Assembly: GCA_023258955.1 (NCBI GenBank)
Contig: JAHFRE010000014.1
Location: 1 to 39,364 of the forward strand
Length of the DNA stretch: 39,364 nucleotides
Direction: 5' to 3'
Source: Sterolibacterium sp.
GTDB lineage: Bacteria > Pseudomonadota > Gammaproteobacteria > Burkholderiales > Rhodocyclaceae
Shown here: piece after piece, positions 20,795 to 39,247 of the stretch
Layout of the letters: the number at the start of each line of letters is the position of its first letter
Position numbering within the stretch: position 1 is the first letter of the stretch
Made by a program: the position numbers and the translations under genes
The notes under the pieces: generated by a model
Seen by the model: only the letters and a program-made list of their open reading frames with translations
The model's database searches: none
Told to the model about the DNA's origin: nothing

Positions 20795-21292
20795 GTGGCC
20801 TCGCCCATCTTGACCCCACCGGCGTTCGAGGCCAAGCTCTGTCGCCCCGAGGATTTCGCCGCACGCGCGGCGCAACTGGCCCGGCCACGGGTGTTCAGCA
20901 ACGGCTGCTTCGACATCCTGCACCGCGGTCACGTCACCTATTTGGCGCAGGCGCGACAACTCGGCGCCAGTCTTATCGTCGCCGTCAACAGCGACGACTC
21001 GGTGCGCCGCCTGGGCAAGGGCGCGGACCGGCCGGTGAATCGCCTCGCCGACCGCATGGCGCTACTGGCGGCGCTCGAGTGCGTTTCCCTGGTGGTGAGC
21101 TTCGCCGAGGACACGCCGCTGGCCACCATCCTGCGCTGCCTACCGGAGATCCTGGTCAAGGGCGGCGATTGGCCGGTCGACAGCATCATCGGCGGCCGCG
21201 AGGTGCTCGCCGCCGGCGGCAGCGTGCAGTCGATACCCTTCGTCCACGCCAGCTCGACCACCGCCTTGCTGGAGAAGATCCGCAGCCTCTGA
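20795..21292 (+). CDS. rfaE2: D-glycero-beta-D-manno-heptose 1-phosphate adenylyltransferase (RfaE domain II)
   Basis: This 165-residue nucleotidyltransferase corresponds to the C-terminal domain of HldE. It uses ATP to make ADP-heptose for LPS core synthesis. The cytidylyltransferase-fold signature VFSNGCFDILHRGHVTYLAQ (HxGH type) and the motifs VAVNSDDSVRRLGKG, RPVNRLADRMALLAAL, VKGGDW and FVHASSTTALLEKI identify it. It is a stand-alone protein, so a separate kinase (rfaE1) is expected elsewhere. The start is GTG at 20795, only 7 bp after dolP, so it is probably co-transcribed with it. Confidence 0.93.
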   Translation: MASPILTPPAFEAKLCRPEDFAARAAQLARPRVFSNGCFDILHRGHVTYLAQARQLGASLIVAVNSDDSVRRLGKGADRPVNRLADRMALLAALECVSLVVSFAEDTPLATILRCLPEILVKGGDWPVDSIIGGREVLAAGGSVQSIPFVHASSTTALLEKIRSL

Positions 21293-21308: not shown

Positions 21309-22658
21309 CTAGGATCTTCTCCCGCCCAGCATCGCTTTCAGGCACACCCAGATGAACATGACGCCGCCGATGATGGCGATCGCGCCGCCCAGGCCCATCA
21401 TGCCCATCGCCACCTTCTCCGAGACGCTGGACAGGACCTGATCGGCGCCGGCCACCTTGCGCTGCACGCCGTAGCCGCCGGACCAGGCCAGACCCACGAT
21501 GTGCAGCAGCTGGCCGCCGCCGTAGACGTAGGGTTGCAGGCGCGCCATGCGTCCGTCCGCTTCGGCGTAGCCGAGCTTGGGCAGCAGCAGGTAGGCCAGG
21601 CCCATGAAGGCCAGGGTGACGCCGACGATGGAGCCGTGGTAATGGGCGGGAATCACCACGTTCACGCCGCGGATCAGATAGCCGAGAACGCCGCCGCAGA
21701 CGAACAGCAGGACCGAGGCCCACAGCGCCGCCGCCGCCGGCCGCCGCGCCGGCCAGGAACGCGGCAGGGCCAGCAGCAGCAGCACCATCAACGGCAGCAT
21801 CAGCGTGTGGCCGATCTGCATCAGCAGGGCGAATGCCGCCATGTGCCCATCCGATCCCAGCGGCCAGAAGACGTAGATGATCGGCACGGCGATCACCGGC
21901 AGGGTCGCCAGCGCGAACAGTTGCGTCGCCGAGCGGCTGCTGGCCCGCGGCGGCGCCCCCAACTCCTGCGCCAGCCACCACCAGGCGACCAGCATCAACA
22001 GCGAGTGCTGGAACTGCAGCGTGTGCCCGGGACCCCAGAACAATAGCTCGTAGAAGGCCGTGCCCTTGATCTCCGGGACCGTCGCCAGCGAGGCGGCCAG
22101 CGCCGCGTAGGAAACCGCGCCGGTTACCGCGCCGAGGTAGATGCCCAGCCGCAACTCGCCGCCCGCACCGCCGAGCGCCTGGCCAGGCCAGCCGGTGAGC
22201 AGATGGCGCAACAGGGCCAATCCGAAGCCGGCGCCGGCCAGGGTCAGGCCCAGCAGAAAGTAGTCCTGATCGAGGACGGGAATGTAGTTGTTGAGTAGCG
22301 GCTCGGCACCGGGAAGGAACGGCGAGGCGCCCATGACCAGCGTTCCGGCGACGGCGAAGCCCAACCCGCTCCAACCCATCCAGAGCAGGCGGGCACTGCC
22401 GGCCAGGCTCCAGAGCAAGGCGGCAAAAGCCATGAACCAGGTGAACACCGACAGGTCGACATGCACCACCAGCGCCGAGCGGAAGAAGTCCCGGCGTGGG
22501 AACAGGTCCTGCATGCCCGGTGTGCGCGCCACCACCAGCAACACGGCGAGCAGGCCGGAGACGATCAGGGCGGTGATGCCGACGGCGAGCCAGGCCCGGG
22601 CGAGGCGCTTGGCTGCGGCGTCGCCGCTAAAGGAAAGGGTATCGCTTTTGTCTGTCAT
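21309..22658 (-). CDS. Divergent heme-copper oxidase subunit I-like membrane protein
   Basis: The 449-residue polytopic protein has about twelve membrane helices and belongs to the heme-copper oxidase / nitric oxide reductase superfamily. Conserved histidines are His66 (LVVHVDLSVFTWF, low-spin heme type), His212 in FWGPGHTLQF (the CuB-type helix), His339 and His341 in IPAHYHGSIVGVTLAFMG (heme-ligand helix), and His386. The usual adjacent His-His pair that completes CuB is absent anywhere in the protein; the corresponding region reads GSDGHMAAFALLMQIGH. No subunit II or cytochrome c gene is adjacent. Alternatives are a non-canonical NO reductase or an oxidase with altered metal site. It starts one base after the chemoreceptor stop and is probably co-transcribed with it. 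Confidence 0.82.
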   Translation of the reverse strand: MTDKSDTLSFSGDAAAKRLARAWLAVGITALIVSGLLAVLLVVARTPGMQDLFPRRDFFRSALVVHVDLSVFTWFMAFAALLWSLAGSARLLWMGWSGLGFAVAGTLVMGASPFLPGAEPLLNNYIPVLDQDYFLLGLTLAGAGFGLALLRHLLTGWPGQALGGAGGELRLGIYLGAVTGAVSYAALAASLATVPEIKGTAFYELLFWGPGHTLQFQHSLLMLVAWWWLAQELGAPPRASSRSATQLFALATLPVIAVPIIYVFWPLGSDGHMAAFALLMQIGHTLMLPLMVLLLLALPRSWPARRPAAAALWASVLLFVCGGVLGYLIRGVNVVIPAHYHGSIVGVTLAFMGLAYLLLPKLGYAEADGRMARLQPYVYGGGQLLHIVGLAWSGGYGVQRKVAGADQVLSSVSEKVAMGMMGLGGAIAIIGGVMFIWVCLKAMLGGRRS

Positions 22659-22659
22659 G

Positions 22660-23982
22660 TCAGAAGAGCTCTATTTTGGGCCCGGACGCGGCCCCCGGAT
22701 TGGCCGGAGTGACCTTGCCGGAAAGGTTGTTGTGGGTGACGCGCTGCTGCTCCATGGCGTATCCGGACGACAGCGCCTCCAGGTGATCGCTGAGCGGAAC
22801 CAATTGCAACGGCGCCACGTGTCCCTGGCGGGCGGCGTCGGCCAGCAAGGCGGCGTGGTTGTCGAGCTGCACCAACGCGCCCGCCACCAGTTCCAGCTGC
22901 TGCCGGGTGATGTCCTGGAACTGCAGGCAGCCCAGGGTTTCCAGAACCTCGTTGGAAATGATTTCGGAGGTGCTGTTCAACCTGCTGGTGAGACCCTGCA
23001 GGTATTCGACCACATCGGCGAAACGTCGTCCCAGTTCCTGCATCTGCTCGCTGATCTGGCCCATGCGGCGGCTCTCCTCGTCCTCACCCGACGCCGCCTT
23101 GGTCGCCACCAGGTTCTCGTCGATGGCGCGGGTGACGCTGGCGATGCCCGTGGTGATCTCCGCCGCCGCCTTGTCGGTCTGCGCCGAGAGTTCGCGCACG
23201 TGGTCGGCGACGACGGCGAAGCCTCTGCCGTATTCGCCCGCCCGCGCCGCCTCGATGGAAGCGTTCAAAGCCAGCAGATTGGTCTGCTTGGCGATCTGCC
23301 GTATCGTTTCCGCCAGCGGCCCCAGCGAGCGCACCACCTCGGCCATCTTGGCCACCCGCTGCTGCTCCTTGCGCAGCTCGCCCATGCGCAGCTGTTCGTA
23401 TTCGTTGAGGGCTTCGATCGCGTTGACGTTGCGCTGCACCTCGTCTTCCGATTCCTGCGACAGCGAGTTGGAACGGATCACCGATTGGCGGACCTCTTCG
23501 AGCAGGGTCTCGCTCTGCGCAAAGATATGGTTGAGCCGGTTGGCCATGTCACCGGCTGCGGCTTCGGTGGCCGTCGTCACGTCCTTGAGGTGACCACGCA
23601 AGACGTCGTTGTACGGCCCGATGCGGTTCAGGTCAGCGGCGATCAGGCCAAAATTGTCCAGCTGTTGCGCGTCGGACAAGCCGAGAAACTTCTTGTCGCC
23701 GGTGAAATCGTCGAGCGCGCGGTCCATCACCAAGGACAGCAAGATCAGCAGCGCGACCGTCGTCAGCAACGCCAGGGTCACCCCCGCGAGCAGGGCGCCG
23801 GCCATCCCGTCGCGCGGGTCCGCCCAGCCCTGAGCGAAGCACAGCGCCGGCAAGGCCCAGGCCGCCACCAAGCTCAACACAGCCATCGCCAGGACCAGGC
23901 CGAGGCGCGCCGTCCAGCCGTGGCGCCGATACCAGAAGGTCAGCCGCAGATGCCACGGAACGCGCGGACTCGCGCGCTTCAT
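22660..23982 (-). CDS. Methyl-accepting chemotaxis-type signalling protein
   Basis: The 440-residue protein has a basic cytoplasmic N-terminus, two membrane helices ([20 protein letters not shown] and [20 protein letters not shown]) with a short loop of about 20 residues between them, and a long coiled-coil cytoplasmic domain. The receptor tip is clear: [38 protein letters not shown]. With almost no periplasmic region and no HAMP domain that I can see, it probably senses a cytoplasmic or membrane signal or a partner protein. Near the C-terminus [15 protein letters not shown] resembles the FQD motif of CheZ-like proteins. The ATG overlaps the stop of the upstream hemerythrin gene (ATGA), so the two are translationally coupled. 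Confidence 0.9.
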
Positions 23983-24392
23983 CCGAGGCTCGGCGCGGCA
24001 AGCATCAGCTGTCCGAGTTCCCGGTCCAGTTCGCAGATGTGATTCAGCCACCAGCTTTGCAGAAAGGCGTGCAGCGCCAGACCGACGCTCGCATCGCCCG
24101 CCTGCAAGCGTGCCTGAAAGTCGGCAACGCTACGCCAATACTGGCCGTGCGCCGCCAGGTGCAGTTGCACGTGGCTGGTCGGCAGAGCCACGGACTTCAT
24201 CAGGTGTTCCTCGGAGCTAAAATGGAACGCCGCATAGTCCTGCAACTCGGCCATCAACTTACTCAGCGCGCTGCCCCCCTTGCCGGTCGACGTCAAGGTG
24301 CCGACACGAGCGAGCAAGCGCAGCAAATGTTTGTGCTGGTCATCGACGTCGTCGATGCCCACGCTGTACTCGGGACGCCAGTTCGTATCCAT
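23979..24392 (-). CDS. Bacteriohemerythrin
   Basis: The 137-residue soluble protein has the four-helix hemerythrin fold with a di-iron O2-binding site. Predicted ligands are His20 ([12 protein letters not shown]), His57 and Glu61 ([10 protein letters not shown]), His78 and/or His82 (HVQLHLAAH), His118 and Asp123 (NHICELD). Such proteins store or sense oxygen, and some bind NO. Here the gene overlaps a chemoreceptor that has no obvious sensor domain, so acting as its oxygen-sensing partner is a reasonable inference. The ATG at 24392 was chosen because the family starts close to W-x-P-x-Y-x-V-G-I-D. The frame upstream is antisense-like filler over ssb. Confidence 0.93.
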
Positions 24393-24474
24393 TGTGCGGG
24401 CCGTGCCATGCTTGCGGGAACGCAGAGGATACACCAGCAGCGCGGCGGATTTCCAGCTCCCGGGCGCACTATTC

Positions 24475-24930
24475 CTAGAAGGGGATATCGTCCTCGAAGT
24501 CGTTGAACCCCGCGCCCGCTGGCTGTTGCGGCGGCTTGGCGGAACCGCTCGCGGCGGCGCTCGAATCGCGCGCAGGCGGCGCTTCGCCACTGCCCGAGCG
24601 GCTGCCCAACATCTGCATGCTGTCGGCGACGATCTCGGTGGTGTAGCGCTCCTGGCCTTCCTTGTCGGTCCACTTGCGGGTCTTCAGCGAGCCTTCGATG
24701 TACACCTGCGAACCCTTCTTCAGGTATTGCCCGGCGATCTCCGCCAGGCGGCGAAAGAAAACGACGCGGTGCCATTCGGTGGCCTCCTTCTTCTCGCCGC
24801 TGGTCTTGTCCTTCCAGGTGTCGGTGGTCGCCAGGGTGCAATTGGTCACCGCCTCACCGTTGGGCATGTAGCGGGTCTCCGGATCACGCCCGAGGTTGCC
24901 CACCAGAATCACCTTGTTCACTGAAGCCAT
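24475..24930 (-). CDS. ssb: Single-stranded DNA-binding protein SSB
   Basis: SSB coats single-stranded DNA during replication, recombination and repair and recruits partners by its acidic tail. The 151-residue protein has the OB-fold motifs [52 protein letters not shown] and [13 protein letters not shown] Gly/Ala/Pro-rich linker follows, and the protein ends in the conserved tail DFEDDIPF. A strong AAAGGAGAG lies before the ATG. The DNA from about 37 bp upstream of the ATG becomes AT-rich and carries the TGTCAC repeats described separately, so its native promoter may have been displaced. Confidence 0.97.
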
Positions 24931-24966
24931 CTTTTCTCTCCTTTGGTGCTGAGCGTTAATACTTTA

Positions 24967-25012
24967 TGTCACCAGTGAAAAGTATCTGTCACTCGTTAAT
25001 TTAATATGTCAC
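24967..25012 (+). repeat. Three TGTCAC repeats at exact 20-bp spacing
   Basis: TGTCAC occurs at 24967-24972, 24987-24992 and 25007-25012. The copies sit in similar contexts (ATGTCACCAG, CTGTCACTCG, ATGTCACTGT) in very AT-rich DNA just upstream of ssb. Regular 20-bp repeats that start with TGT at a compositional boundary resemble transposase-binding sites at one end of Tn7-, Tn5053- or IS21-like elements. They could also be operator sites. I find no convincing matching inverted end in the window and no transposase. Confidence 0.55.
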
Positions 25013-25693
25013 TGTCTATTACATTATTACAATTGGTTAGAATAGGCATGACACAACGTACCAATCACAAGCAACCCGCCCTTTAAGAACCCTTTCATTA
25101 TTGTCGGCTGTCCACCGTAAGCGATAACCAAGCAGTGAAGAGTATATATAGGTTATGTTGGAAAAAGCTGAGCGCATTTATCCCCGGCGGGTAAGAAGTG
25201 CTTTCCCGCGCAGGTTGAAATGTATGGCCTCAAGCTGTCTAGCTCTTGGACAGGCATTCAGTCGAGAACATAAATGTTCAGACTGAGTTGTCGTGACGCG
25301 CACCAAAAGAACCTTGGTGGCGGTTAAGAGACGGCAAACCGGCTCTTGTCTTGGTTTAGTACTGCTTGCTGCGTTCGCCCCGAAAGGCCGGTTGTAGCTC
25401 ACCGTTGTCGGTGCAAAGCACCAGTATGCATGTTTATTCTATCACAGAATTTTGTTCTATGTCTAGGGGGAGCCCTTTCCATGTGTTTAAGGAGCCATGC
25501 TCTCTCTCCCTTGTGGATGTGCCCGAACATGACTTCAAAACAATCGGCAAACAGTTCGTGGGGCGTGCTGGCCGAAAGAGGTAAACGAGAGCCTGCCGTC
25601 AATTTGACAAATGCTGCACGAATATTCGCTGCCGGGTAAAGGCGCTTGTGTCGGAATAGCCATACTCCGCTGAGTCTATTGTCCGTGTCACGG
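25013..25693. other. AT-richer stretch with no recognisable gene
   Basis: Short open frames exist on both strands, all under 100 codons, and none has a domain, convincing ribosome-binding site or codon use like the neighbours. Base composition differs clearly from ssb on the left and exbD on the right. It may be degraded mobile-element DNA behind the TGTCAC repeats. Confidence 0.5.
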
Positions 25694-25828
25694 CTAACTG
25701 CCCTCGGAGCGCGCCGTGTCGCGCTCAGCCTGGCGAACCGACGCCTGCATAACCACGCAGGCCTCAGCGAGAATAAAAAGCGCGGCCAACATCCGACCGC
25801 GAAGGAGGAGCTTTATGTCCGTCATCAT
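25694..25828 (-). CDS. Possible 44-residue membrane protein at the end of the exbD operon
   Basis: An ATG at 25828, 18 bp after the exbD stop and preceded by GAGGAC at 6-nt spacing, opens a 44-codon frame. It starts MMTDIKLLLRGRM, continues with a hydrophobic stretch LAALFILAEACVVMQASV, and ends in a charged tail. The layout is that of a single-helix small membrane protein. It has no recognisable family. A terminator-like hairpin lies inside the frame, which argues against it or suggests attenuation. I cannot decide whether it is expressed. Confidence 0.35.
   Translation of the reverse strand: MMTDIKLLLRGRMLAALFILAEACVVMQASVRQAERDTARSEGS
25772..25801 (-). terminator. Rho-independent terminator-like hairpin after tonB-exbBDD
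   Basis: On the minus strand CGCGGTC (25801-25795) can pair with GGCCGCG (25787-25781), with one G-U pair and a 7-nt loop, followed by CTTTTTATT (25780-25772). This is a good intrinsic terminator 46 bp after the last exbD, though it lies inside the small open frame 25694-25828. Confidence 0.6.
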
Positions 25829-25846
25829 TCTGTCCTCAACTCATGC

Positions 25847-26278
25847 TCAGTTCATAAATTGCTCGTTGCCGACGAGACCGATCTTGGTCACGCCCCGTCG
25901 CTGCGCGGTCGCCATCACCATCGCCACCGACTTGTAGAGCACCAGCTTGTTCGGTCGCAGATGCACTTCCGGTTGATCCGGCAGCGCGGCGAGGGTCGCC
26001 ATCTTGCCTTCGAGCGTCGGCCTATCCGGCACCACCTGCCCGTCCCAGATGACGGTCCCGTCGAAGTCCACCTCGATCCTGACGATCTCCGGCGGCTTCA
26101 AGGGTGGGGGCGGATTGCCCACCGGCATGTTCAACTTCACCGCGTGCGTCTGGATCGGTATCGTGATGATCAGCATGATCAGCAGCACCAGCATCACGTC
26201 GATCAGCGGCGTGGTGTTCATCTCCACCATCACTTCCGGATCCCCCGAGCCTCCGCTCGGTCCCACGTTCATCGACAT
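25847..26278 (-). CDS. exbD: Biopolymer transport protein ExbD (second copy)
   Basis: ExbD is a bitopic inner-membrane protein that forms the proton-driven motor with ExbB and passes energy to TonB. The 143-residue protein has a short cytoplasmic tail ending in EMNTTPLIDVMLVLLIMLII, with the essential membrane Asp in the PLIDVMLVLL motif, and a periplasmic domain with KLNMPVG, FDGTVIWDGQ and VHLRPNK. It differs substantially from the preceding exbD copy. It follows that gene after a 1-bp gap and is the last sure gene of the operon. The ATG at 26278 gives MSMNVG, parallel to MSMTVG in the neighbour. Confidence 0.93.
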   Translation of the reverse strand: MSMNVGPSGGSGDPEVMVEMNTTPLIDVMLVLLIMLIITIPIQTHAVKLNMPVGNPPPPLKPPEIVRIEVDFDGTVIWDGQVVPDRPTLEGKMATLAALPDQPEVHLRPNKLVLYKSVAMVMATAQRRGVTKIGLVGNEQFMN

Positions 26279-26279
26279 C

Positions 26280-26711
26280 TCAGCCCTCCCTCCCCGGCGG
26301 CTCGGTGATGAAGCCGATCTTGACGATCCCCGCCCGCTGGCAGGCGAACACCACCCTCCCCACCGCCTCGTAGCGCGCATCCATGTCGCCGCGGATGTGC
26401 ACCTCCGGCTGCGGGTCGAGCACCGACACCTTCTTCAGCCGATTCACCAGGTCCTCGTTGTCCGGTATCAGGAGGGTGTTCCAATACACCTCCCCTTCCC
26501 GGCTCACCGACAACAGCACGTTCTCCGGCTTGGTCACCGTCGGCACGTTCTCTTCCTTGGGCAGTTCCACCCGCGCCGATTGCGTCACCACCGGGATGGT
26601 GATGAGGAAGATGATCAGCAGCACCAGCATCACGTCCACCAGGGGCGTGGTGTTGATCGACGAGACGACCTCGTCCTCGTCGCTCGATTCTGTGCCTACA
26701 GTCATGCTCAT
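26280..26711 (-). CDS. exbD: Biopolymer transport protein ExbD (first copy)
   Basis: This is a second ExbD-type protein, also 143 residues. It has an acidic N-terminal tail (SSDEDEVVSSINTTP), the membrane helix PLVDVMLVLLIIFLITIPVV with the proton-handling Asp, and a periplasmic domain (LLSVSREGEVYWN, PEVHIRGDMDARYEAVG). Operons with one ExbB and two ExbDs occur in proteobacteria such as Xanthomonas, where the second ExbD is needed only for some functions. That precedent is from family knowledge; nothing here shows which ExbD does what. It lies 11 bp after exbB. Confidence 0.94.
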   Translation of the reverse strand: MSMTVGTESSDEDEVVSSINTTPLVDVMLVLLIIFLITIPVVTQSARVELPKEENVPTVTKPENVLLSVSREGEVYWNTLLIPDNEDLVNRLKKVSVLDPQPEVHIRGDMDARYEAVGRVVFACQRAGIVKIGFITEPPGREG

Positions 26712-26722
26712 GTTCTTGGCCT

Positions 26723-27577
26723 TTAACCTTTACCGCCCATCAGGATGGCGTGCACGTCGGCGGAGAATCCTCTGATCTTCTCCATCGCCACCTTGTTGCG
26801 CCGCACCAGCCAGTTGTAGCCCAGCACCGCCGGCACCGCCACTGCCAGGCCGATCGCCGTCATGATCAGCGCTTCGCCCACGGGACCGGCCACCTTGTCG
26901 ATCGAGGCCTGGCCGGCGATGCCGATGGCGGTCAGCGCGTGGTAGATGCCCCAGACCGTGCCGAACAGACCCACGAAGGGGGCGGTCGAACCGACCGTGG
27001 CCAGAAACGCCAGGCCGTCTTGCAACCGGTTCTGCACGCTCTCCGTGGCCCGCTGGATCTGCATGGTGAGCCAGGTGTGCTGGTCGATCTTGGCCACGAT
27101 CGCTCCTTCGTGCCGGCTGCCCGCCTCCACCGCCGACTCGGCGATGTAGCGGAAGGCGTTGCCCGCCTCCAGCGCGTTGATCCCCTCCTGCACGCTTCGG
27201 GCCTGATCGAAGGAGGTCTTGGCGGCGTTGGCCTGGGAGAACATCTTCAGCTGTTCGTAGAACTTGGTGACGATGATGTACCAACTGCCCATCGACATGA
27301 TCACCAGGATGATCAGCGTGCCCTTGGCGACGAAGTCGCCGGTCTTCCACAGGGCGTCCAGACCGTAGGGGTTGTCGATCTTCTCGACGTCCTTCTTCGC
27401 CTCTTCCTTCTTTACCTCGGGCAGGCCCGAGGCCACCGGCGTCACCTTGGCGGCGTCGCTGGCCGCCGCGGCCACCGCCGGCGCTGCCGGAGCATCTGCG
27501 GCCGCGGCCGGCGGCGCTGCCAAGAATGTTGCTGCCATCAGCGCAGCAGCCATTACCGATATTCTGTTCATTGCCAT
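26723..27577 (-). CDS. exbB: MotA/TolQ/ExbB proton channel family protein ExbB
   Basis: ExbB forms the pentameric inner-membrane channel of the TonB energy-transducing complex. The 284-residue protein carries an N-terminal signal-like segment (ISVMAAALMAATFLAAPP), an Ala-rich periplasmic stretch and a charged VKKEEAKKDVEKI, then three membrane helices. The family core is LAFLATVGSTAPFVGLFGTVWGIYHAL, seen as LATVGSTAPFVGLFGTVWG, followed by GPVGEALIMTAIGLAVAVPAVLGYN. The long exported N-terminus is a known variant of ExbB. AGGAGA lies before the ATG at 27577. The gene is 52 bp after tonB. Confidence 0.95.
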   Translation of the reverse strand: MAMNRISVMAAALMAATFLAAPPAAAADAPAAPAVAAAASDAAKVTPVASGLPEVKKEEAKKDVEKIDNPYGLDALWKTGDFVAKGTLIILVIMSMGSWYIIVTKFYEQLKMFSQANAAKTSFDQARSVQEGINALEAGNAFRYIAESAVEAGSRHEGAIVAKIDQHTWLTMQIQRATESVQNRLQDGLAFLATVGSTAPFVGLFGTVWGIYHALTAIGIAGQASIDKVAGPVGEALIMTAIGLAVAVPAVLGYNWLVRRNKVAMEKIRGFSADVHAILMGGKG

Positions 27578-27629
27578 CTTCCTATCTCCTGTGCTTCGAT
27601 TGAGTGTCTTGCGCTGGGCATTGCCGCTG

Positions 27630-28256
27630 CTATTCGAGCTTCCACACGTACTGCAGCCGTGCCCAGGAGGTCTCGGGCTTGCCGTCGACCGTCCCCGCCT
27701 TGAACTGGCACAGGGAAAGAGCACGCCTCGCCGCCTCGTCGAGACGCGGATAACCGCTCGAGGTCTCGATCTTGCTCTCGGCCACCCGCCCATCGACCCC
27801 GATCAGGAACCTCAGGGTCACCGTCCCCGTCTCTTCGTTGCGCCGTGCCGCTGCCGGATACTCCGGCTGCTGGCAGGAGCGGGCGGCGTCGATCACCGGG
27901 GCGGTGCGCTCGACGTGCCTTGCGGCCACCGGCGGCAGCGCGGCCACCGGTCGGCTGCTCGTGGTCGAACTGATAGTGTTGGCGGCGGGGGCGGCCACCG
28001 AGATGTTCACCTCCACCGGCGGGATGTAGGCCGGCGGTGGTGGCGCGAGCTTGGGCGGCGGCGGCGGCGTCTTGTCCGGCGGCGGCTTCTTCGCCTCCTC
28101 GATCAGCTTCGTCTCGTAGGGCTTCCTGACTGTCTCGACGATCTTGTGCGCCAGGCCGTTGACCAGCGCATAGACCAGCGCGACGTGGAATACGATTACG
28201 AAGCTGATGCCGATCAGGTGCCTTCCAGGATTCCGCTGCTCTCTCGCGTAATCCAT
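27630..28256 (-). CDS. tonB: Energy transducer TonB
   Basis: TonB spans the periplasm and couples the ExbB/ExbD motor to outer-membrane receptors for siderophores, cobalamin and other substrates. The 208-residue protein has one N-terminal membrane helix (IGISFVIVFHVALVYALV) with the conserved Ser/His pattern. A Pro/Lys-rich periplasmic linker follows (KKPPPDKTPPPPPKLAPPPP), then a C-terminal TonB domain with PEYPAAARRNEETGTVTLRF, VDGRVAESKIETSSGYPRLD and a terminal WKLE. The two cysteines (SCQQPEYP, LCQFKAG) may pair. A strong AGGAGG precedes the ATG. The cobalamin-dependent IcmF nearby would benefit from TonB-dependent B12 uptake, but no receptor gene is in the window. Confidence 0.95.
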   Translation of the reverse strand: MDYAREQRNPGRHLIGISFVIVFHVALVYALVNGLAHKIVETVRKPYETKLIEEAKKPPPDKTPPPPPKLAPPPPAYIPPVEVNISVAAPAANTISSTTSSRPVAALPPVAARHVERTAPVIDAARSCQQPEYPAAARRNEETGTVTLRFLIGVDGRVAESKIETSSGYPRLDEAARRALSLCQFKAGTVDGKPETSWARLQYVWKLE

Positions 28257-28421
28257 CAGTTCTCTTCCTCCTAAACGACCTGGTTATTAGCCTGTCTTCA
28301 ATGGGCTCACTGCGCATGTCGCCGATCACTTTGAGATATCATCGTGCGGTCTTCTGTGCTCGATGGTTCTCGCGATCTAGCGTTAACCTTGGTGCTCAAC
28401 AAAATATTAAGCGCAGCCCGT

Positions 28422-29282
28422 CTAGACCTTATACCTAGTCGATTGAGCTTCGTATTCAGGTAAGCCGACAATACGCTTCATCTCCTCAAAGCTAAGCGCT
28501 AAGGGAAACGACGCTGACTCTCCACGCATCTGCAAAAGGGCATCCTGCATCGCACGCATTGACGCAAAGAGTAGGGGATGATAGACAGCGAGCTTGAATC
28601 CATAGTCCTCCAATTCCTTCCGTGACAGTACAGGAGTCTTCCCGCCCGGCACAACGTTTGCCAAGGTTGGTACTTGAATTTCCCTGGCGAACGTTCGCAA
28701 CTCATCCGAGGATTCCGGCGCTTCGAGAAAAATTATGTCCGCACCTTCATTGACGAAGTCAAGGCACCGATCCATCGCCGCTGAAAAGCCGTCGACAGCG
28801 CGCGCATCGGTGCGGGCGACGATGAGGACACCATATTCGCGTGCTGCCTCAACGGCAGCGCGGATCCTCATTTTAGCTTCAGCCCGTGGGACGACCATCT
28901 TTCCGTCAAAATGACCGCATCGCTTCGGTTCGACCTGGTCTTCGATCATCACGGCCGCAGCACCAGCGCGCGCATATTCCGACACAGTACGACGAACGTT
29001 CATGCCATTTCCATTTCCCGTGTCACCATCCCCGATCACAGGCATTCCTGGGATTGCACTACAAATATATCGAAGCTGATCTGCCATTTCAGACATGGTG
29101 ATAAGACCAGTATCGGGGCCACCGAGTCGACTTGCCGAAACCGCAGCACCGCTCATGAAAGTCAGAGGAAACCCTGCTTGTTTCACCATGACGGCAGAAA
29201 GTCCGTCATAACATGTTGGGAAATGATGGCAGCCTGGCGCCTTCAAGATATCCCGCAATGCACGCGAAGTGGTCTTGTTCAT
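28422..29282 (-). CDS. Isocitrate lyase / PEP mutase superfamily C-C lyase
   Basis: The 286-residue TIM-barrel protein belongs to the ICL/PEPM superfamily. It has the metal-binding VIGDGDTGNG (Asp85, Asp87), MIEDQ (Glu114) and PKRCGH with Cys122. A Cys in K-R/K-C-G-H is the catalytic acid of isocitrate, methylisocitrate and 2,3-dimethylmalate lyases and is absent from PEP mutase and oxaloacetate decarboxylase, so a retro-Claisen/aldol cleavage is expected. The gene overlaps leuD by 4 bp (ATGA), making it the last gene of a three-gene dehydratase-lyase operon. The likely substrate is the substituted malate made by that dehydratase, but the exact compound cannot be read from the sequence. Base composition is lower in GC than the flanking tonB operon. 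Confidence 0.88.
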   Translation of the reverse strand: MNKTTSRALRDILKAPGCHHFPTCYDGLSAVMVKQAGFPLTFMSGAAVSASRLGGPDTGLITMSEMADQLRYICSAIPGMPVIGDGDTGNGNGMNVRRTVSEYARAGAAAVMIEDQVEPKRCGHFDGKMVVPRAEAKMRIRAAVEAAREYGVLIVARTDARAVDGFSAAMDRCLDFVNEGADIIFLEAPESSDELRTFAREIQVPTLANVVPGGKTPVLSRKELEDYGFKLAVYHPLLFASMRAMQDALLQMRGESASFPLALSFEEMKRIVGLPEYEAQSTRYKV

Positions 29283-29968
29283 CTCTTTATTGGCTCACTC
29301 GTAATGACAGAACCGGTGGCCACCGCCATTTGTTGGCGCAGCGCCGCAGGCGTCGCTTCGTATATCCAAGGCCGAAGCTGACGGTCCCTCATTTGGAAGG
29401 CATTGATGTCCAACTCGTGCTTTAGAATTTTGCCAATCTCGTCGAGACCTTCTAGGAGAATCTCCCTCAGGCCATCGTCGATGGAGAAGTTGATTTCCGT
29501 TCCTTCCACTGTTGTGATCTTGCGGTCGACAAGGTTAACAGTGATTGGGTGAGCTTCGCTGGTCGACATAATTTCTGCCGCCAGTGACCGCACAAGGTCC
29601 GGTGAAAGAACTACCGGGAGCAGACCCCGTTTGAAGCAATTGTTGAAGAAGATGTCTCCGAAACTCATTGCAATCACGCAGCGCACTCCGAATCCCATTA
29701 GCGCCCATACCGCATGCTCTCGGGAACTACCGCAACCAAAATTTTCGCCTGCTAGAACGATTTTCGCGTTCGTGAATGGCGGCTTATTGAGAATGAAGCT
29801 TGGATTAGGCTGGTCACCCTCAACGTAGCGCCAGTTTCCAAACAACGCGGCTCCGTAGTCTGGCCTCATTGAAGCAAGCATTCGCGGAATCGGAATTATC
29901 TGATCAGTGTCAATATTGTCAGTCAAAATAGGCGCCGCCACAGCGGTCAGGCGATCAAACTTTTGCAT
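29279..29968 (-). CDS. leuD: Aconitase-family dehydratase small subunit (LeuD-like)
   Basis: The 229-residue protein is the swivelling small subunit of a two-subunit hydro-lyase like isopropylmalate isomerase. Motifs are LTDNIDTDQIIP at the N-terminus, NPSFILNKPPF, and the key NFGCGSSREHAVWALMGFG, which supplies substrate-binding residues, followed by GDIFFNNCFKRGLLPV. In standard LeuD the segment is usually REHAPWAL with a Pro; here it is Val. Length is slightly above the typical 200-215 because of an extended C-terminus. It directly follows leuC and overlaps the lyase gene, so it probably belongs to a catabolic dehydratase rather than leucine synthesis. No leuA or leuB is present. Confidence 0.9.
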   Translation of the reverse strand: MQKFDRLTAVAAPILTDNIDTDQIIPIPRMLASMRPDYGAALFGNWRYVEGDQPNPSFILNKPPFTNAKIVLAGENFGCGSSREHAVWALMGFGVRCVIAMSFGDIFFNNCFKRGLLPVVLSPDLVRSLAAEIMSTSEAHPITVNLVDRKITTVEGTEINFSIDDGLREILLEGLDEIGKILKHELDINAFQMRDRQLRPWIYEATPAALRQQMAVATGSVITSEPIKR

Positions 29969-31375
29969 TTATACCCCCAGCTTACGGATGTCCACTATTC
30001 TTCCAGCAATCGCCGCCGCTGCAGCCATTGCTGGGCTCGCAAGATGTGTACGCGAGTTCGGACCCTGTCGCCCCTCGAAATTCCGATTGGACGTCGAGAC
30101 GCAACGCTCCCCTGGTCCCACCTTATCGGCATTGACGGCACCGCACATTGAACACGCCGACTCGCGCCATTCAAATCCCGCGTCAATGAAGATCCGGTCC
30201 AGACCTTCGCCTTCTGCAGCACGCTTGACCGAAGTCGAGCCCGGAACAACCATGGCGCGGACTCCTGCGGCGACCCGGCGCTTTTGGATCATCGCTGCGG
30301 CCGCCCGCAAATCATCCAGGCGACTGTTCGTGCATGAACCGATAAACACATTTTGAATAGGCAAATCGATCAGCGACGCTCCTGGCGTCAGCCCCATATA
30401 GGCTAATGCTTGCTCGGCGTTGCGACGCGTCTCCGGGTCGGAGATAGACTGAGGATCAGGTACCTGCCCGTCAACATTAATTACGTGCTGCGGACTAGTT
30501 CCCCATGTCACTTGCGGACCTATCAGAGTCGTGTCTACTGTGATTTCGCGGTCAAATATCGCTTCCTCGTCGGTCGTTAGCTGCCTCCAATGGCTCTCTG
30601 CTGCGGTCCAGCTTTTCCCGGTTGGCGCATAGCGACGCCCGCGAACATAGTCAATTGTCTTATCATCGGGGGCCACAAAGCCTACTCGGGCGCCCATTTC
30701 GATCGCCATGTTACAGAGGGTAAACCGTCCCTCGATAGGCAGGTCCTGGATGACTGGGCCGGCATACTCGACTGCGTAGCCCGTGCCGGCACCAGCACCA
30801 ATCTTCCCGATCAAATAGAGAATCAAGTCTTTGGCGAAAACGCCGGGTTGAAGAATGCCATCAAATACTACACGCATACGCATAGGCTTTCGCATGGGAA
30901 GGACCTGCGTTGCTAGAACCTCCTCGACTTGGCTAGAGCCGATCCCAAATGACACCGCCCCGATGCCGCCGACGGTACATGTATGGCTATCACCGCAGAC
31001 TAGCGTCGCACCTGGCAGCGCGATGCCGAGTTCAGGTGCCATGACGTGCACAATACCCTGGCGCGAATCACGAAAATCCACCAGTTCTATTCCAGCCTCT
31101 TGTGTATTTTGTCTTAGCGTGTATAGAAAATCTGCACCTGGCGCAAAGCTATCCTCGTTGCGACCTGGGTCGGTTGATAGGATATGCTCTTGCACACCAA
31201 CCGTAAGTTCAATATTGCGGACCCGTCGTCCGGCCCCGCGCAGACCGTCAAACCCCTGATAGGAGGAGAGTTCATGCATCATATGGCGGTCAATGTGCAG
31301 GAGCACGCTTCCGTCATTTAGTTCCTTGACGACATGAAGATTCCATATTTTATCGAAGGCGGTGAGTGGTGTCAT
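29969..31375 (-). CDS. leuC: Aconitase-family dehydratase large subunit (LeuC-like)
   Basis: The 468-residue protein is the iron-sulfur large subunit of a LeuCD-type hydro-lyase. The [4Fe-4S] cysteines are Cys348 (GSCTNSR), Cys408 and Cys411 (ACSMCG), at nearly the same positions as in E. coli LeuC. Other motifs are VCGDSHTCTVGGIGA, VLATQVLP and NRNFEGRQGP. Near residue 38 the usual SPQAF-like segment reads SSYQGFDGLR, a possible substrate-specificity change. It starts at the ATG at 31375 with AAGGA upstream, one base before leuD in the operon leuC-leuD-lyase, behind a strong promoter and a candidate GntR operator. Isopropylmalate isomerase remains possible, but the lyase partner suggests another substituted maleate/malate. 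Confidence 0.9.
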   Translation of the reverse strand: MTPLTAFDKIWNLHVVKELNDGSVLLHIDRHMMHELSSYQGFDGLRGAGRRVRNIELTVGVQEHILSTDPGRNEDSFAPGADFLYTLRQNTQEAGIELVDFRDSRQGIVHVMAPELGIALPGATLVCGDSHTCTVGGIGAVSFGIGSSQVEEVLATQVLPMRKPMRMRVVFDGILQPGVFAKDLILYLIGKIGAGAGTGYAVEYAGPVIQDLPIEGRFTLCNMAIEMGARVGFVAPDDKTIDYVRGRRYAPTGKSWTAAESHWRQLTTDEEAIFDREITVDTTLIGPQVTWGTSPQHVINVDGQVPDPQSISDPETRRNAEQALAYMGLTPGASLIDLPIQNVFIGSCTNSRLDDLRAAAAMIQKRRVAAGVRAMVVPGSTSVKRAAEGEGLDRIFIDAGFEWRESACSMCGAVNADKVGPGERCVSTSNRNFEGRQGPNSRTHLASPAMAAAAAIAGRIVDIRKLGV

Positions 31376-31415
31376 TTCGATTCCTTTTCAACGAACGTTG
31401 CAATCACTATTGTCT

Positions 31416-31427
31416 GATTATATAATC
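31416..31427. promoter_or_regulatory. Candidate GntR operator over the leuC -10
   Basis: GATTATATAATC is a perfect 12-bp palindrome (GATTA-TA-TAATC) overlapping the leuC -10, in the context GTCTGATTA. The same TCTGATTAAT context recurs upstream of both gntR genes. Binding by the GntR proteins is inferred. Confidence 0.55.
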
Positions 31428-31446
31428 CTGCAAAATAACTTGTCAA
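31417..31446 (-). promoter_or_regulatory. Near-consensus sigma-70 promoter of the leuC-leuD-lyase operon
   Basis: On the minus strand TTGACA (31446-31441) and TATAAT (31422-31417) are both perfect hexamers, separated by 18 bp. The start would lie about 35 nt before the leuC ATG. Such a strong promoter usually needs repression, and a palindrome covers the -10. Confidence 0.85.
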
Positions 31447-31703
31447 GGGAATTGAACATCGTTTCGCACGAACAGGGGGCTACCATAGCCTGCAAGCCAG
31501 TGCATTGGTCAGGCAACTATTGGACTAATGGGAAGTTCTTTTTGCGAATATTGCAGGCTGCTTGACGACTGGCATATCAATCGTCTTTGAGTTGACTCTG
31601 GGCATTCAACCAGGCGAAGGATTAACTAGCTTCGCGTGGCTGGCGAATCTTCAGAGTTGGTCAAGACTTTCCTTTGAGGCGTACATATGATACGGACCTG
31701 GCC
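31447..31703. other. Intergenic region between leuC promoter and icmF
   Basis: About 260 bp of AT-richer DNA with no open frame I would call. The composition changes to GC-rich within a few tens of bases of the icmF start, so the right edge of the inserted cassette probably lies near 31,690. No convincing icmF promoter or ribosome-binding site is seen, so the native icmF upstream region may have been replaced. Confidence 0.5.
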
Positions 31704-34700
31704 ATGACCGATCTCAGCGCAGGCAGCGCAGTGCTTCCCTACAAAGCCAAGAACAAGGTGCGCTTTGTCACCGCGGCCGCGCTGTTCGACGGCCACGACG
31801 CCTCGATCAACATCATGCGGCGCATCATGCAGGCGACCGGGCTGGAGGTGATCCATCTCGGCCACAACCGCTCGGTCGGCGAAATCGTCAATGCGGCGCT
31901 GGCCGAAGACGTGCAGGGCATCGCCGTCACCTCCTACCAAGGCGGCCACGTCGAGTATTTCAAGTACATGCTCGATCTGCTCGCCGCTGGCGGCGGCGAC
32001 AACATCAAGGTCTTCGGCGGCGGCGGCGGCGTCATCGTGCCCGCCGAGATCGCCGAGTTGCACGCCTACGGCGTCGAGCGCCTGTACGCGCCGGAAGACG
32101 GTCAGCAGATGGGTCTGCAGGGCATGATCAACGATCTGGCGCGGCGCGCCGACGTCGACCTGTCACCGCTGGCACCGCAGGGGCAGGAGTTGTTCGCCGC
32201 GCTCGCGGCGCCGGACCGAAACACGCGCCTGCGCCATCTGGCGCGGGTCATCACGGCGCTGGATAACGGCGTCTACGCGGAGGAGATCAAGGCGCGCTTG
32301 CGGGCCGAGGCGGCAGCGGTCACCACCCCCACGCTGGGCGTCACCGGCACCGGCGGCTCGGGCAAGTCGAGCCTCTGCGACGAGCTGATCCGGCGCTTCC
32401 GCCTCGACCAGGACGACCGGCTGAAGATCGCCGTGATCGCCGTCGATCCCTCGCGCAAGAAGAGCGGCGGTGCGCTGCTCGGCGATCGCATCCGCATGAA
32501 CGCGATCGAGCACCCCAACATCTACATGCGCTCGCTCGCCACGCGCGGTGCCGGCGCCGAGGTTTCCTCGGCCCTGCCCGAGGTGGTGGCCGCCTGCAAG
32601 CTCGCCGGCTTCGATCTGATCATCGTCGAGACCCCCGGCATCGGCCAGGGCGACGCCGCCATCGTCGGCCACGTCGATTGCTCGCTCTACGTGATGACGC
32701 CGGAGTTCGGCGCCGCGAGCCAGTTGGAGAAGATCGACATGCTCGACTTCGCCGACTTCGTCGCCATCAACAAGTTCGATCGCAAGGGCGCCGAGGACGC
32801 GCTGCGCGACGTCGCCAAGCAGGTGCAGAGGAACCGCCAGCGTTTCGATCAGCCGCTCGAGACCATGCCGGTGTTCGGCACCCAGGCGGCGCGCTTCAAC
32901 GACGACGGCGTCACCGCCCTCTACCAGGCGCTGCGCGAACGCCTCGCGGTGCTGGGTCTCGCGACCGGGCCGGGCCGGCTGCCGGCAGCCGCCGTCAGGC
33001 ATTCGACCAGTTCGCGCGCCATCGTGCCGACGGCGCGGGTGCGGTATCTCGCCGAGATCGCCGCGACGGTCCGCGCCTACCATGGGCTGACCCGCGCCCA
33101 GTCGCTCATCGCCCGCCAGTGCCAGTCGCTGCGCACGGCGATCGCCCTGCTCGAGACCCGCGGCAAGCCGACCGGCGATCTGGCCGAAGCGCTCGCCGCC
33201 ACAGCCGGCGAGCTGCAGCCGGCGCAGCACAAGCTCTTGGCGATGTGGCCCGACATGCAGCGCGCCTACGGCGCCGACGAGTATGTGGTGAAGATCCGCG
33301 ACAAGGAGCTGAGGACCCAGCTCGTCGGTGTCTCGCTCTCCGGCACCAAGATACGCAAGGTGGTGCTGCCGCGCTTCGAGGACGAGGGCGAGATCCTGGG
33401 TTTTCTCATGCGCGAGAACGTGCCCGGTTCGTTCCCGTACACCGCCGGCGTCTTCGCCTTCAAGCGCGAAAACGAGGACCCGACCCGCATGTTCGCCGGC
33501 GAGGGCGACGCCTACCGCACCAACCGCCGCTTCAAGCGCGTCTCCGAGGGCCAGTCGGCCAAGCGCCTGTCCACCGCCTTCGATTCGGTGACGCTCTACG
33601 GCTGCGATCCGGACGAGCGGCCGGACATCTACGGCAAGGTCGGCAACTCGGGCGTTTCGATCGCCACCGTCGACGACATCAAGGTGCTCTACGACGGCTT
33701 CGACCTGTGCAGTCCCACCACCTCGGTGTCGATGACCATCAACGGTCCGGCGCCGATGATGCTGGCCATGTTCTTCAACTGCGCCATCGACCAGCAGCTG
33801 GACAAGTTTAGGCGCGACAACGGACGCGAGCCGACCGAGGACGAGGCGGCCAAGATCAGCGCCTGGACCTTGGGCAACGTGCGCGGCACGGTGCAGGCGG
33901 ACATCCTCAAGGAGGACCAGGGCCAGAACACCTGCATCTTCTCCACCGAATTCGCCCTGAAGATGATGGGCGACATCCAGGAATACTTCGTCCACCACGA
34001 CGTGCGCAACTTCTACTCGGTGTCCATCTCCGGCTACCACATCGCCGAGGCCGGGGCCAATCCGATCAGCCAGCTCGCCTTCACCCTGGCCAACGGCTTC
34101 ACCTACGTCGAAGCCTATCTGGCGCGCGGCATGCACATCGACGACTTCGCGCCCAACCTGTCCTTCTTCTTCTCCAACGGCATGGATCCCGAGTACACGG
34201 TGATCGGCCGCGTCGCCCGGCGCATCTGGGCGGTGGCGATGAAGAACAGATACGGCGCCAACGAGCGCAGCCAGAAGCTGAAGTACCACGTGCAGACCTC
34301 GGGCCGCTCGCTGCACGCCCAGGAGATGGCCTTCAACGACATCCGCACCACGCTGCAGGCGCTGATCGCCGTCTACGACAACTGCAACTCGCTGCACACC
34401 AACGCCTTCGACGAGGCGATCACCACGCCGACCGACGAGTCGGTACGCCGCGCCATGGCCATCCAGCTGGTGATCAACCGCGAGTGGGGTTTGACGATGA
34501 ACGAGAATCCCAACCAGGGCGCCTACATCATCGACGAGCTGACCGACCTGGTGGAGGAGGCGGTGCTCAAGGAATTCGAGGCATTGGCCTCCCGCGGCGG
34601 CGTCCTCGGGGCGATGGAGACCGGCTACCAGCGCGGCAAGATCCAGGAGGAGTCGCTCTACTACGAGGGTCGCAAGCACGACGGCTCCTATCCCATCGTC

Positions 34701-34979
34701 GGCGTCAATACCTTCCGCAATCCCAAGGGCGACGCCCAGGTCGAGATCGAGCTGGCGCGCTCGACCGAAGCGGAGAAGCGTTCGCAGATCGAGCGCCTGG
34801 CACATTTCCAGAAGCGCAACCAAAGCCAGGCCGCGCCGATGCTGGAGCGGCTGCGCCGCACCGTAATCGAAGACGGCAACGTCTTCGCCGTGCTGATGGA
34901 GGCGGTCAAGGTCTGCTCGCTGGGCCAGATCAGCAGCGCGCTCTATGAAGTCGGTGGCCAGTACCGGCGCAACGTGTAG
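31704..34979 (+). CDS. icmF: Fused isobutyryl-CoA mutase IcmF
   Basis: IcmF is an adenosylcobalamin enzyme that interconverts isobutyryl-CoA and n-butyryl-CoA, with a built-in GTPase chaperone. Some members also convert isovaleryl-CoA to pivalyl-CoA. The 1091-residue protein has all three parts. The first is an N-terminal B12-binding domain with [14 protein letters not shown] (His31 as cobalt ligand) and [11 protein letters not shown]. The second is a MeaI-like G-domain with P-loop GTGGSGKSS (215-223), [16 protein letters not shown] and INKFDRKG. The third is a C-terminal TIM-barrel mutase with [35 protein letters not shown] and [10 protein letters not shown]. The ATG at 31704 gives the family N-terminus; an in-frame TTG lies 30 bp upstream. 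It is GC-rich, unlike both neighbours. Confidence 0.96.
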
Positions 34980-36802: not shown

Positions 36803-37564
36803 TTACAGGCGCAGTTTGCCCGACGGGAATAGATCAACGAACCTGTCGTCTATCATCTGCTGGGTCTGTGCAATGTGAGCCACCATAGCTGATTGGGCAG
36901 CATCTGGATCTCCCGCCAAGATCGCTTTAGCGATCGCCCGGTGCGCCTTGCCCGAGCCAACGCGATCATTTAGCGTTACGCGCGAGCGGAACTGAAACGT
37001 GAACAGAGGCAGGTTAAGTTTCTCGATCAGCGCGCCAAGCTCCGAGTTGCCGCTTGCTTCAACTATGGCATGGTGAAACCGCTCGTTTTCAAACATGAAG
37101 GTGTCGAGTTCGGTTGCGAGCGCGTCGTTCATCCAAAGCCTTGCGACCGGCCGGAATTCTGCGCGGTTGGTGTCCTTTTTTATATTCTGTGCAGCGAGCT
37201 TGGCCGCCAATCCCTCCAACGCTTGCCGGATTTCCATGAGATTGTGAACTTCCTGGCGCGTGAGTTGGCGAACGACTGCGCCGCGGTTGCGAATGATCTC
37301 AACCAATCCTTCTGCAGCCAAGCGAAGGAATGCTTCACGGAGAGAACTGCGGCTCACGCCAAGGCTCTCCGTAAGCTCTACCTCAATAAGGCGCTGTCCC
37401 GGCGCAAACTGACCCTGACGGATCCCGTTCTGAATCGATGTGAAGGCTAGTTCAACTGCGCTTGGCTCATCGTCATTGCGCCGGCCAGGTGAACGCGTGG
37501 CGTGCGTTGGGCTCGGATCAGCCCTCTGAACCTTAGGCTTAGCCAACGGTCGTGTTTTGGTCAT
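36803..37564 (-). CDS. GntR family transcriptional regulator, FCD subfamily (copy 1)
   Basis: The 253-residue regulator has a basic, Pro-rich N-terminal tail, a winged helix from about residue 36 (AFTSIQNGIRQGQFAPGQRL, LTESLGVSRSSLREAFLRL, GLVEIIRNRGAVV) and an all-helical FCD effector domain (MEIRQALEGLAAKLAA, FENERFHHAIVEASGN). FCD regulators usually sense organic acids and repress catabolic operons. It is about 92% identical to the copy at 38486-39247, in opposite orientation; roughly 19 residues differ, mostly after residue 166. A palindrome matching that at the leuC promoter lies 53 bp upstream. It is the best candidate, with its twin, to control the leuC operon. Confidence 0.93.
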   Translation of the reverse strand: MTKTRPLAKPKVQRADPSPTHATRSPGRRNDDEPSAVELAFTSIQNGIRQGQFAPGQRLIEVELTESLGVSRSSLREAFLRLAAEGLVEIIRNRGAVVRQLTRQEVHNLMEIRQALEGLAAKLAAQNIKKDTNRAEFRPVARLWMNDALATELDTFMFENERFHHAIVEASGNSELGALIEKLNLPLFTFQFRSRVTLNDRVGSGKAHRAIAKAILAGDPDAAQSAMVAHIAQTQQMIDDRFVDLFPSGKLRL

Positions 37565-38485: not shown

Positions 38486-39247
38486 ATGACCAAGTCACGT
38501 CCGTTGGCTAAGCCTAAGGTTCAGAGGGCTGATCCGAACCCAACGCACGCCACGCGTTCACCTGGCCGGCGCAATGACGATGAGCCGAGCGCAGTTGAAC
38601 TCACTTTCACATCGATTCAGAATGGGATCCGACAGGGTCAGTTTGCGCCAGGACAGCGCCTTATTGAGGTAGAACTTACGGAGAGCCTTGGCGTGAGCCG
38701 CAGTTCTCTCCGTGAAGCATTCCTTCGCTTGGCTGCAGAAGGATTGGTTGAAATCATTCGCAACCGCGGCGCAGTCGTTCGCCAACTCACGCGCCAGGAA
38801 GTTCACAATCTCATGGAAATCCGGCAAGCGTTGGAGGGATTGGCGGCCAAGCTCGCTGCACAGAATATAAAAAAGGACACCAACCGCGCAGAATTCCGGC
38901 CGGTCGCAAGGCTTTGGATGAACGACGCGCTCGCAACCGAACTCGACACCTTCATGTTTGAAAACGAGCGGTTTCACCACGCTGTAGTTGAAGCAAGCGG
39001 CAACTCGGAGCTTGGCGCGTTGATCGAGAAGCTGAACCTGCCTCTCTTCACGTTTCAGTTTCGCTCTCGGGCTGGCCTGAATTATCGTGTTGGCTCGGGC
39101 AAAGCGCACCGGACGATCGCTAAAGCGATTTTGGCGGGAGATGCAGATGGTGCCCAATCAGCGATGGTGGCCCACATCGCCCATACCCAACAGTTGATCG
39201 ACAACGAGCTTGTTAATTTGTTCCCATCGGGCTCACGGCAGCTCTAG
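38486..39247 (+). CDS. GntR family transcriptional regulator, FCD subfamily (copy 2)
   Basis: This 253-residue protein has the same layout as copy 1: winged helix from about residue 36 (GVSRSSLREAFLRL recognition region) and FCD domain (MEIRQALEGLA, ENERFHHAVVEASGN). The DNA-binding part and most of the FCD domain are identical to copy 1. Differences concentrate in the last third (for example RAGLNYRVGSGK against RVTLNDRVGSGK, and NELVNLFPSGSRQL against DRFVDLFPSGKLRL). So it should bind the same operators but might respond to a different effector. It may regulate genes beyond the right edge. Upstream DNA is recognisably related to that of copy 1, so the duplication includes the promoter. Confidence 0.93.
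   Translation: MTKSRPLAKPKVQRADPNPTHATRSPGRRNDDEPSAVELTFTSIQNGIRQGQFAPGQRLIEVELTESLGVSRSSLREAFLRLAAEGLVEIIRNRGAVVRQLTRQEVHNLMEIRQALEGLAAKLAAQNIKKDTNRAEFRPVARLWMNDALATELDTFMFENERFHHAVVEASGNSELGALIEKLNLPLFTFQFRSRAGLNYRVGSGKAHRTIAKAILAGDADGAQSAMVAHIAHTQQLIDNELVNLFPSGSRQL

Follow-up and report, generated by a model that had tools for sequence, protein, structure and literature searches.

Locus and gene content

The locus described here lies within a 39,364 nucleotide stretch of Sterolibacterium sp. DNA (Rhodocyclaceae; GenBank assembly GCA_023258955.1, contig JAHFRE010000014.1, positions 1 to 39,364 of the forward strand), referred to at its full length as the window, and it contains three closely spaced genes encoding a hemerythrin (HHE), a methyl-accepting chemotaxis protein (MCP) and a COX1-like membrane protein (OX). 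The source genome is a draft of 389 contigs that is 91% complete. An earlier annotation made from the letters alone, here called the sequence-only reading, had described this three-gene anatomy, and it was borne out: HHE (PF01814, E 2.1e-12), MCP (PF00015 at residues 173-340, E 1.9e-26) and OX (PF00115, E 1.9e-14) each match Pfam above the curated cut-off, HHE and MCP overlap by 4 bp, and MCP and OX are separated by a 1-bp gap. The features of the locus are as follows.

23979..24392, minus strand: HHE, a soluble bacteriohemerythrin of 137 amino acids, predicted sensor half (PF01814, NF033749)
23979..23982, minus strand: 4-bp overlap (ATGA) of the HHE stop and the MCP start, read from the sequence
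22660..23982, minus strand: MCP, a methyl-accepting chemotaxis protein of 440 amino acids with a two-helix membrane hairpin, predicted transducer half (PF00015, hydropathy, family alignment)
22660..22923, minus strand: C-terminal tail of MCP, residues 354-440, containing QFQD-x2-RQ (D357 and Q361, a CheZ-like D-x3-Q) and ending in ELF
21309..22658, minus strand: OX, a COX1-like membrane protein of 449 amino acids with a heme-copper oxidase fold lacking the helix-VII His pair (PF00115)

HHE passes the NCBIfam bacteriohemerythrin model NF033749 (96.4 bits against a cut-off of 84), is similar to the solved bacteriohemerythrin 4xpy (E 2.8e-13) and to DcrH-Hr 2avk (E 1.9e-7), and has neither a hydrophobic segment by hydropathy nor a Pfam match to a PAS domain. 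Five His, one Glu and one Asp form the bacteriohemerythrin di-iron ligand set given in the excerpted text of PMC9388753, and the seven ligand positions of HHE (H20, H57, E61, H78, H82, H118 and D123, set by alignment to 4xpy) are invariant in five aligned HHEs paired with an MCP. The chemoreceptor has hydrophobic segments at residues ~22-52 and ~59-91 (window averages of hydropathy) that are separated by ten residues or fewer, in keeping with the "almost no periplasmic domain" of the sequence-only reading. A HAMP domain is usual, but not universal, in methyl-accepting chemotaxis proteins; no Pfam match to HAMP or to a sensor or input domain was found in MCP up to E 0.1. The signalling tip is conserved across 26 aligned family members.

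Conservation of the HHE and MCP pair

Neighbours were searched with one protein of the window per query at E 1e-3 or 1e-4, and contig ends cut many of the flanks short. The MCPs most similar to that of the window (39-47% identity, E < 1e-75) were found in five genomes (G204, G148, G046, G105 and G101), which together with the source genome span four genera. HHE and MCP are a conserved pair, with HHE upstream of MCP on the same strand in 6/6 genomes of this MCP clade. The spacing is 17 bp, 4 bp and 7 bp in G204, G105 and G101, respectively. In G046 a stretch of N covers the MCP start, and the distance is at most ~0.2 kb; in G148 one contig carries HHE followed, after ~0.3 kb, by an MCP start that is 56% identical to its G046 counterpart. 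No HHE was found in flanks of up to 1.5 kb at 24 MCP paralogue loci (L038-L061). Hemerythrins are abundant, with 22 places in the source genome, and a lone adjacency might arise by chance, but chance would hardly place the same orthologues side by side in four genera.

Thirty MCP loci were used, 26 of which yielded an MCP frame for alignment and tree, while four with miscalled frames (L041, L053, L057 and L058) were left out of both and were still checked for HHE. The six paired MCPs make up one side of a branch among the 26 (support 94/80; 100% of 200 bootstrap trees). For HHE, 62 hemerythrin places were counted in six genomes, of which five paired and 34 other domains entered a first tree, the remainder being not fetched or below the score and length filter; the five paired HHEs formed one clade (99/96) against the 34 others. 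A second tree received seven further copies, including that of G148, picked by profile score and not at random, and it placed six paired and four unpaired HHEs in one group of ten (94/81). The HHEs of the pair thus come from a single subfamily that also includes members without an MCP. The order of the paired HHEs agrees with the MCP tree: the window branches off first, followed by a G204-G101 group and by G105 grouped with (G046, G148).

Among the 24 paralogue loci, flanks contain a CheY-like gene in 19, a STAS gene in 19 and CheA in 20; these identities were set by Pfam on examples, and contig ends and miscalled frames explain some of the missing ones. The source genome carries CheY-MCP-STAS at a contig end (G000:C19, L141). 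The G105 pair is transcribed divergently from a CheY-STAS-CheA-MCP-CheW-CheR-CheB-CheD cluster, and in G148, of the same genus, an MCP piece lies ~1 kb from CheY-STAS-CheA-MCP. From these surroundings of the MCP family we infer that the pair belongs to the same pathway.

A proposed split hemerythrin chemoreceptor

We favor, with modest confidence, the reading that HHE and MCP each supply one half of a split (bipartite) chemoreceptor, which would work like CetB/CetA with hemerythrin replacing the PAS sensor. Cytosolic HHE would bind O2, or report redox or nitric oxide (NO), and would dock on the membrane-anchored MCP, which itself has no sensor domain. Direct contact would hand the state of HHE on to MCP, as proposed for CetB and CetA, and MCP would in turn tune a CheA kinase, the likeliest being the one in the CheY-MCP-STAS-CheA type system that this family carries. 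OX is perhaps co-transcribed with the pair and would stand outside the conserved receptor. The binding of HHE to MCP, the O2 or redox stimulus, the CheA partner, the effect on swimming and the co-transcription are all predictions. A promoter and terminator scan gave a result near chance level. The soluble di-iron protein had already been proposed as the sensor of the receptor in the sequence-only reading, and that proposal is supported, short of proof, by the retention of the pair throughout the MCP clade and by the invariant ligands, and is weakened by the four subfamily HHEs without an MCP.

Several observations weigh against a split receptor. The MCP clade is rare, occurring in 6/395 family genomes (E <= 1e-66) and, in an order sample of 399 genomes, in the source genome only. 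Two of its MCPs may not be intact: in G148 the rest of an MCP is at the end of another contig and the gene may be interrupted, and the G101 MCP (L066:8900-10190) is interrupted, its conserved C-terminal end lying ~1 kb further on. The branch support of 94/80 for the paired MCPs is under a strict mark, the window MCP is a long branch, and the single-sequence structure model of MCP (predicted local distance difference test, pLDDT, 52) is unusable. CetA has a HAMP domain, whereas none was found in MCP. The subfamily also holds four HHEs for which no MCP match was seen within 1.5 kb; they are split evenly between G096 and G020, which belong to one genus. On the second HHE tree, three changes are required to explain the pair label. 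An exclusive clade of paired HHEs, as seen in the first tree, was withdrawn once these unpaired copies joined the same subfamily, and confidence in the split receptor was therefore lowered and that in the following alternative raised.

The alternative is that HHE is an O2 or iron buffer, or a protective protein, that is merely co-expressed with MCP and makes no direct contact with it. This would fit the large number of hemerythrins in the source genome, the same-subfamily HHEs without MCP in G096 and G020, and the protection of enzymes by Campylobacter hemerythrins described in PMC4257069; it fits less well with a pair that is kept in every genome of the MCP clade and with two trees whose branching agrees. 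We consider it possible, if doubtful, and retain the split receptor as the preferred reading.

Further hemerythrin loci were noted during these comparisons. One unpaired G096 HHE (L254:1498-2387) directly adjoins a CheY-like response regulator gene and a PAS-GGDEF gene, and occupies the place that MCP has in CheY-MCP-STAS-CheA clusters, and the second G096 copy and the first G020 copy are near genes that, judged by eye, look like HDOD genes. In a class sample, HHE was found at E <= 1e-28 in 6/369 genomes, the source genome included, and six other places in that sample are weak (2e-30 to 5e-29). At one of these six (L245) the long open frame that carries HHE also contains an MCP match further upstream and in frame, which looks like a DcrH-like fusion, and at L257:214-1894 an MCP gene is followed by a hemerythrin gene, the order being reversed relative to the pair and the hemerythrin falling outside the paired subfamily. 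The sequence that interrupts the G101 MCP looks, by eye, like an insertion element.

Comparison with known receptors

In Magnetospirillum gryphiswaldense the overlapping genes cetB2 and cetA2 encode, respectively, a small cytosolic sensor of the flavin adenine dinucleotide (FAD)-PAS type and an inner-membrane transducer (excerpted text of PMC12442639), and CetA of Campylobacter jejuni combines a two-helix hairpin with a HAMP domain (excerpted text of PMC2628428). These energy-taxis receptors, as far as those excerpts describe them, share with HHE and MCP the adjacent or overlapping genes (4 bp here), the small cytosolic sensor and the hairpin transducer, and by analogy the pair may work like CetBA. 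The sensor here is a hemerythrin and not an FAD-PAS protein, however, and MCP is of a family that is linked to STAS and CheA and has a CheZ-like tail. Judged on its domains, with a sensor other than PAS and no HAMP domain found, the pair is not a CetBA member.

Hemerythrin is also coupled to an MCP in DcrH of Desulfovibrio vulgaris, for which O2 sensing is proposed (excerpts of PMC13401364 and PMC9388753), but DcrH is described there as a single polypeptide that includes a periplasmic part and a HAMP part, whereas the pair is encoded in two frames and has almost no periplasmic part. Communication between the hemerythrin and the signalling part of DcrH is inadequately understood according to the excerpted text of a 2026 review (PMC13401364), and a natural receptor of this kind made of two proteins would allow each partner to be purified and mutated on its own and the two to be mixed. 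Split chemoreceptors are already known, and a split hemerythrin receptor would extend them beyond PAS sensors. No description of a two-gene hemerythrin receptor was found in the open-access literature searched, which is no proof of absence.

The C-terminal tail of MCP offers a further point of difference. QFQD-x2-RQ is kept in 26/26 MCPs, with D357 and Q361 invariant in all of them, and the ELF terminus is present in 25/26, the exception being the interrupted MCP of G101. We take D-x3-Q to be the catalytic motif of CheZ (D143 and Q147 of E. coli CheZ). A CheZ profile was built from the five of 18 CheZ loci that passed a filter, and in a single hhalign comparison the tail matched CheZ weakly (probability 22.7, E 9e-4; 0.044 for a control segment), with the FQD-x-T-x-Q region in register. 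MCP residues 335-373 also gave a weak NCBIfam CheZ match far under the cut-off (E 0.0066), and a CheZ profile picked an MCP-family member in G007, again under the cut-off (E 5.9e-4). Unlike CheZ itself, this tail belongs to an MCP, and the likeness is local and weak; a role as a CheY-phosphate phosphatase is accordingly put forward as a lead only. Neither CheZ-like receptors nor STAS-linked clusters yielded anything usable in literature searches.

OX, a COX1 relative lacking CuB ligands

The AlphaFold2 model of OX (pLDDT 86; predicted template modelling score, pTM, 0.89) matches ba3, cbb3 and aa3 oxidase chains in Foldseek, the best being Thermus ba3 oxidases. OX shares the fold of the Thermus ba3-type subunit I (3s8f, E 6.7e-9, TMq 0.73), but is 18% identical to it and lacks the helix-VII His pair. 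A search of PDB sequences with the OX profile found nothing at E 0.001, and the fold assignment therefore rests on the fold comparison. Six His residues (H66, H212, H218, H339, H341 and H386) are invariant in the 39 sequences of the OX family. In the helix-VII stretch an adjacent His pair occurs in 0/39 and a single His in 4/39, whereas the true COX1 of two relatives has the His-His there (alignment register approximate). We take H66, H339 and H341 to be the heme-ligand His on helices II and X, and the CuB ligands to be a His on helix VI, kept in OX as H212, plus the His-His on helix VII. OX is thus likely a diheme membrane protein without CuB, its heme binding being suggested by the ligands that are kept, and it is unlikely to reduce oxygen because the helix-VII pair is missing in 39/39 sequences. 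OX as a working oxidase was rejected on these ligands.

A homologue of OX is present in 12/41 relatives and, at E <= 1e-60, in 50/199 family genomes, both counts including the source genome. Its neighbours were examined in sets of 12 loci of 7.8-14 kb, 24 loci with flanks of up to 1.5 kb, and 80 loci with flanks of up to 8 kb, the last being 80 of the 121 OX relatives found; of 50 OX places besides that of the window, 32 (24 + 8) had their neighbours examined and 18 were left out. The sets overlap (L142, L144, L149, L166 and L206 match contigs of G006, G011, G005, G017 and G020) and are not independent. Among the 80 loci, OX has as neighbours Sco (50), CyoE (35), a TlpA-like thioredoxin (33), cytochrome b (26) and a 165-amino acid protein (26), and the family is therefore placed in respiratory or oxidase-maturation surroundings. 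HHE was found within the flanks examined at 0/80 and 0/36 OX loci, and a partial, generic MCP match occurs at 3/80 (L168, L170 and L207). Conversely, OX is absent from the five fetched MCP-clade loci (6.8-18 kb), and of those five genomes only G101 has OX (E <= 1e-60), ~115 kb away on the same contig. The OX-MCP adjacency was seen in no other genome examined and occurs only on the window contig, where OX was probably captured locally and is not a conserved part of the receptor. Two further genes border the three.

24475-24930, minus strand: ssb, upstream of HHE and on the same strand
20795-21292, plus strand: a cytidylyltransferase gene (named rfaE2-like here), downstream of OX and convergent with it

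The sequence-only reading had named co-occurrence of the three genes across genomes as a check, to be failed if they were seldom neighbours in related genomes, and had cast OX as a possible respiratory output of the receptor. At no other locus examined are the three neighbours, and the output role is not upheld, OX lacking CuB ligands and not being a neighbour of the pair at the other loci examined; the OX and MCP-clade neighbourhoods rule out the three-part operon as a conserved unit. That HHE senses, MCP transduces and OX acts as an oxidase in one three-part unit is extremely unlikely. The tight spacing of all three genes and the lack of a second OX homologue of this strength in the source genome would suit such a unit, but the OX loci are without HHE, the MCP-clade loci are without OX, the helix-VII pair is missing throughout, and in the window OX adjoins only MCP and the cytidylyltransferase gene, with no subunit II.

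The join could instead be a contig error in which OX was linked to MCP by misassembly, given that it is seen in one genome only and in a draft assembly. We judge this very unlikely, as the genes are continuous, with a 1-bp gap, and the G+C content is 0.69 and 0.67 in the two 2-kb windows covering 20-24 kb.

A membrane-embedded role in sensing has also been weighed. In HtrVIII of the archaeon Halobacterium, according to the excerpted text of PMC13401364, an MCP is associated with membrane helices resembling oxidase heme sites; those are fused in HtrVIII, whereas here the CuB-less COX1-like protein is encoded by a separate gene that is adjacent in one genome only. OX could be a split analogue, serving in this species as a second, heme-based sensor of the receptor. 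The HtrVIII precedent (in the same excerpt), the 1-bp gap to MCP, and the retention of H66, H339 and H341 with the CuB pair gone, which suits a sensor better than an enzyme, speak for this. Against it, no other locus joins OX to this MCP, the partial matches at 3/80 loci being generic, and the frequent Sco, CyoE and TlpA-like neighbours point to oxidase maturation or respiration. We regard it as unlikely, and the idea of an oxidase-coupled receptor would survive only as a species-specific possibility (compare HtrVIII in the excerpt of PMC13401364). Decidedly unlikely is the combined proposal of a split oxygen receptor that has its own CheZ-like CheY-phosphate phosphatase motif and that recruited OX in this species as a membrane heme or redox sensor; if true, a single receptor equipped with its own signal termination would receive both cytosolic di-iron and membrane heme inputs.

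Several loci (L020, L021, L024 and L067-L090) show that the CuB-less COX1 mostly adjoins Sco, CyoE or TlpA-like thioredoxin genes. It is possibly an oxidase-maturation protein or one that handles heme or copper. We know of no assigned role for the CuB-less COX1 family, and a search of the literature on CuB-less oxidases found nothing usable. A respiratory cluster at L027:1228-10113 encodes two cytochrome b fusions (one with 4Fe-4S and FlpD domains, the other with ferredoxin and FAD/NAD reductase domains), a protein of 165-173 amino acids without a Pfam match, a CuB-less COX1, a true COX1, Sco and CyoE, and would by its domain content be an unusual electron-transfer module.

Other features of the window

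The G+C content drops to 0.54-0.65 in the 2-kb windows of 24001-32000, compared with 0.66-0.72 before that stretch. Positions 31704-34979 encode a 1,091-amino acid fusion of B12-binding, MeaB-type GTPase and methylmalonyl-CoA mutase domains. Near the window end, two GntR/FCD regulator genes (36803-37564 and 38486-39247), each encoding 253 amino acids and falling in one similarity cluster, are located on opposite strands.

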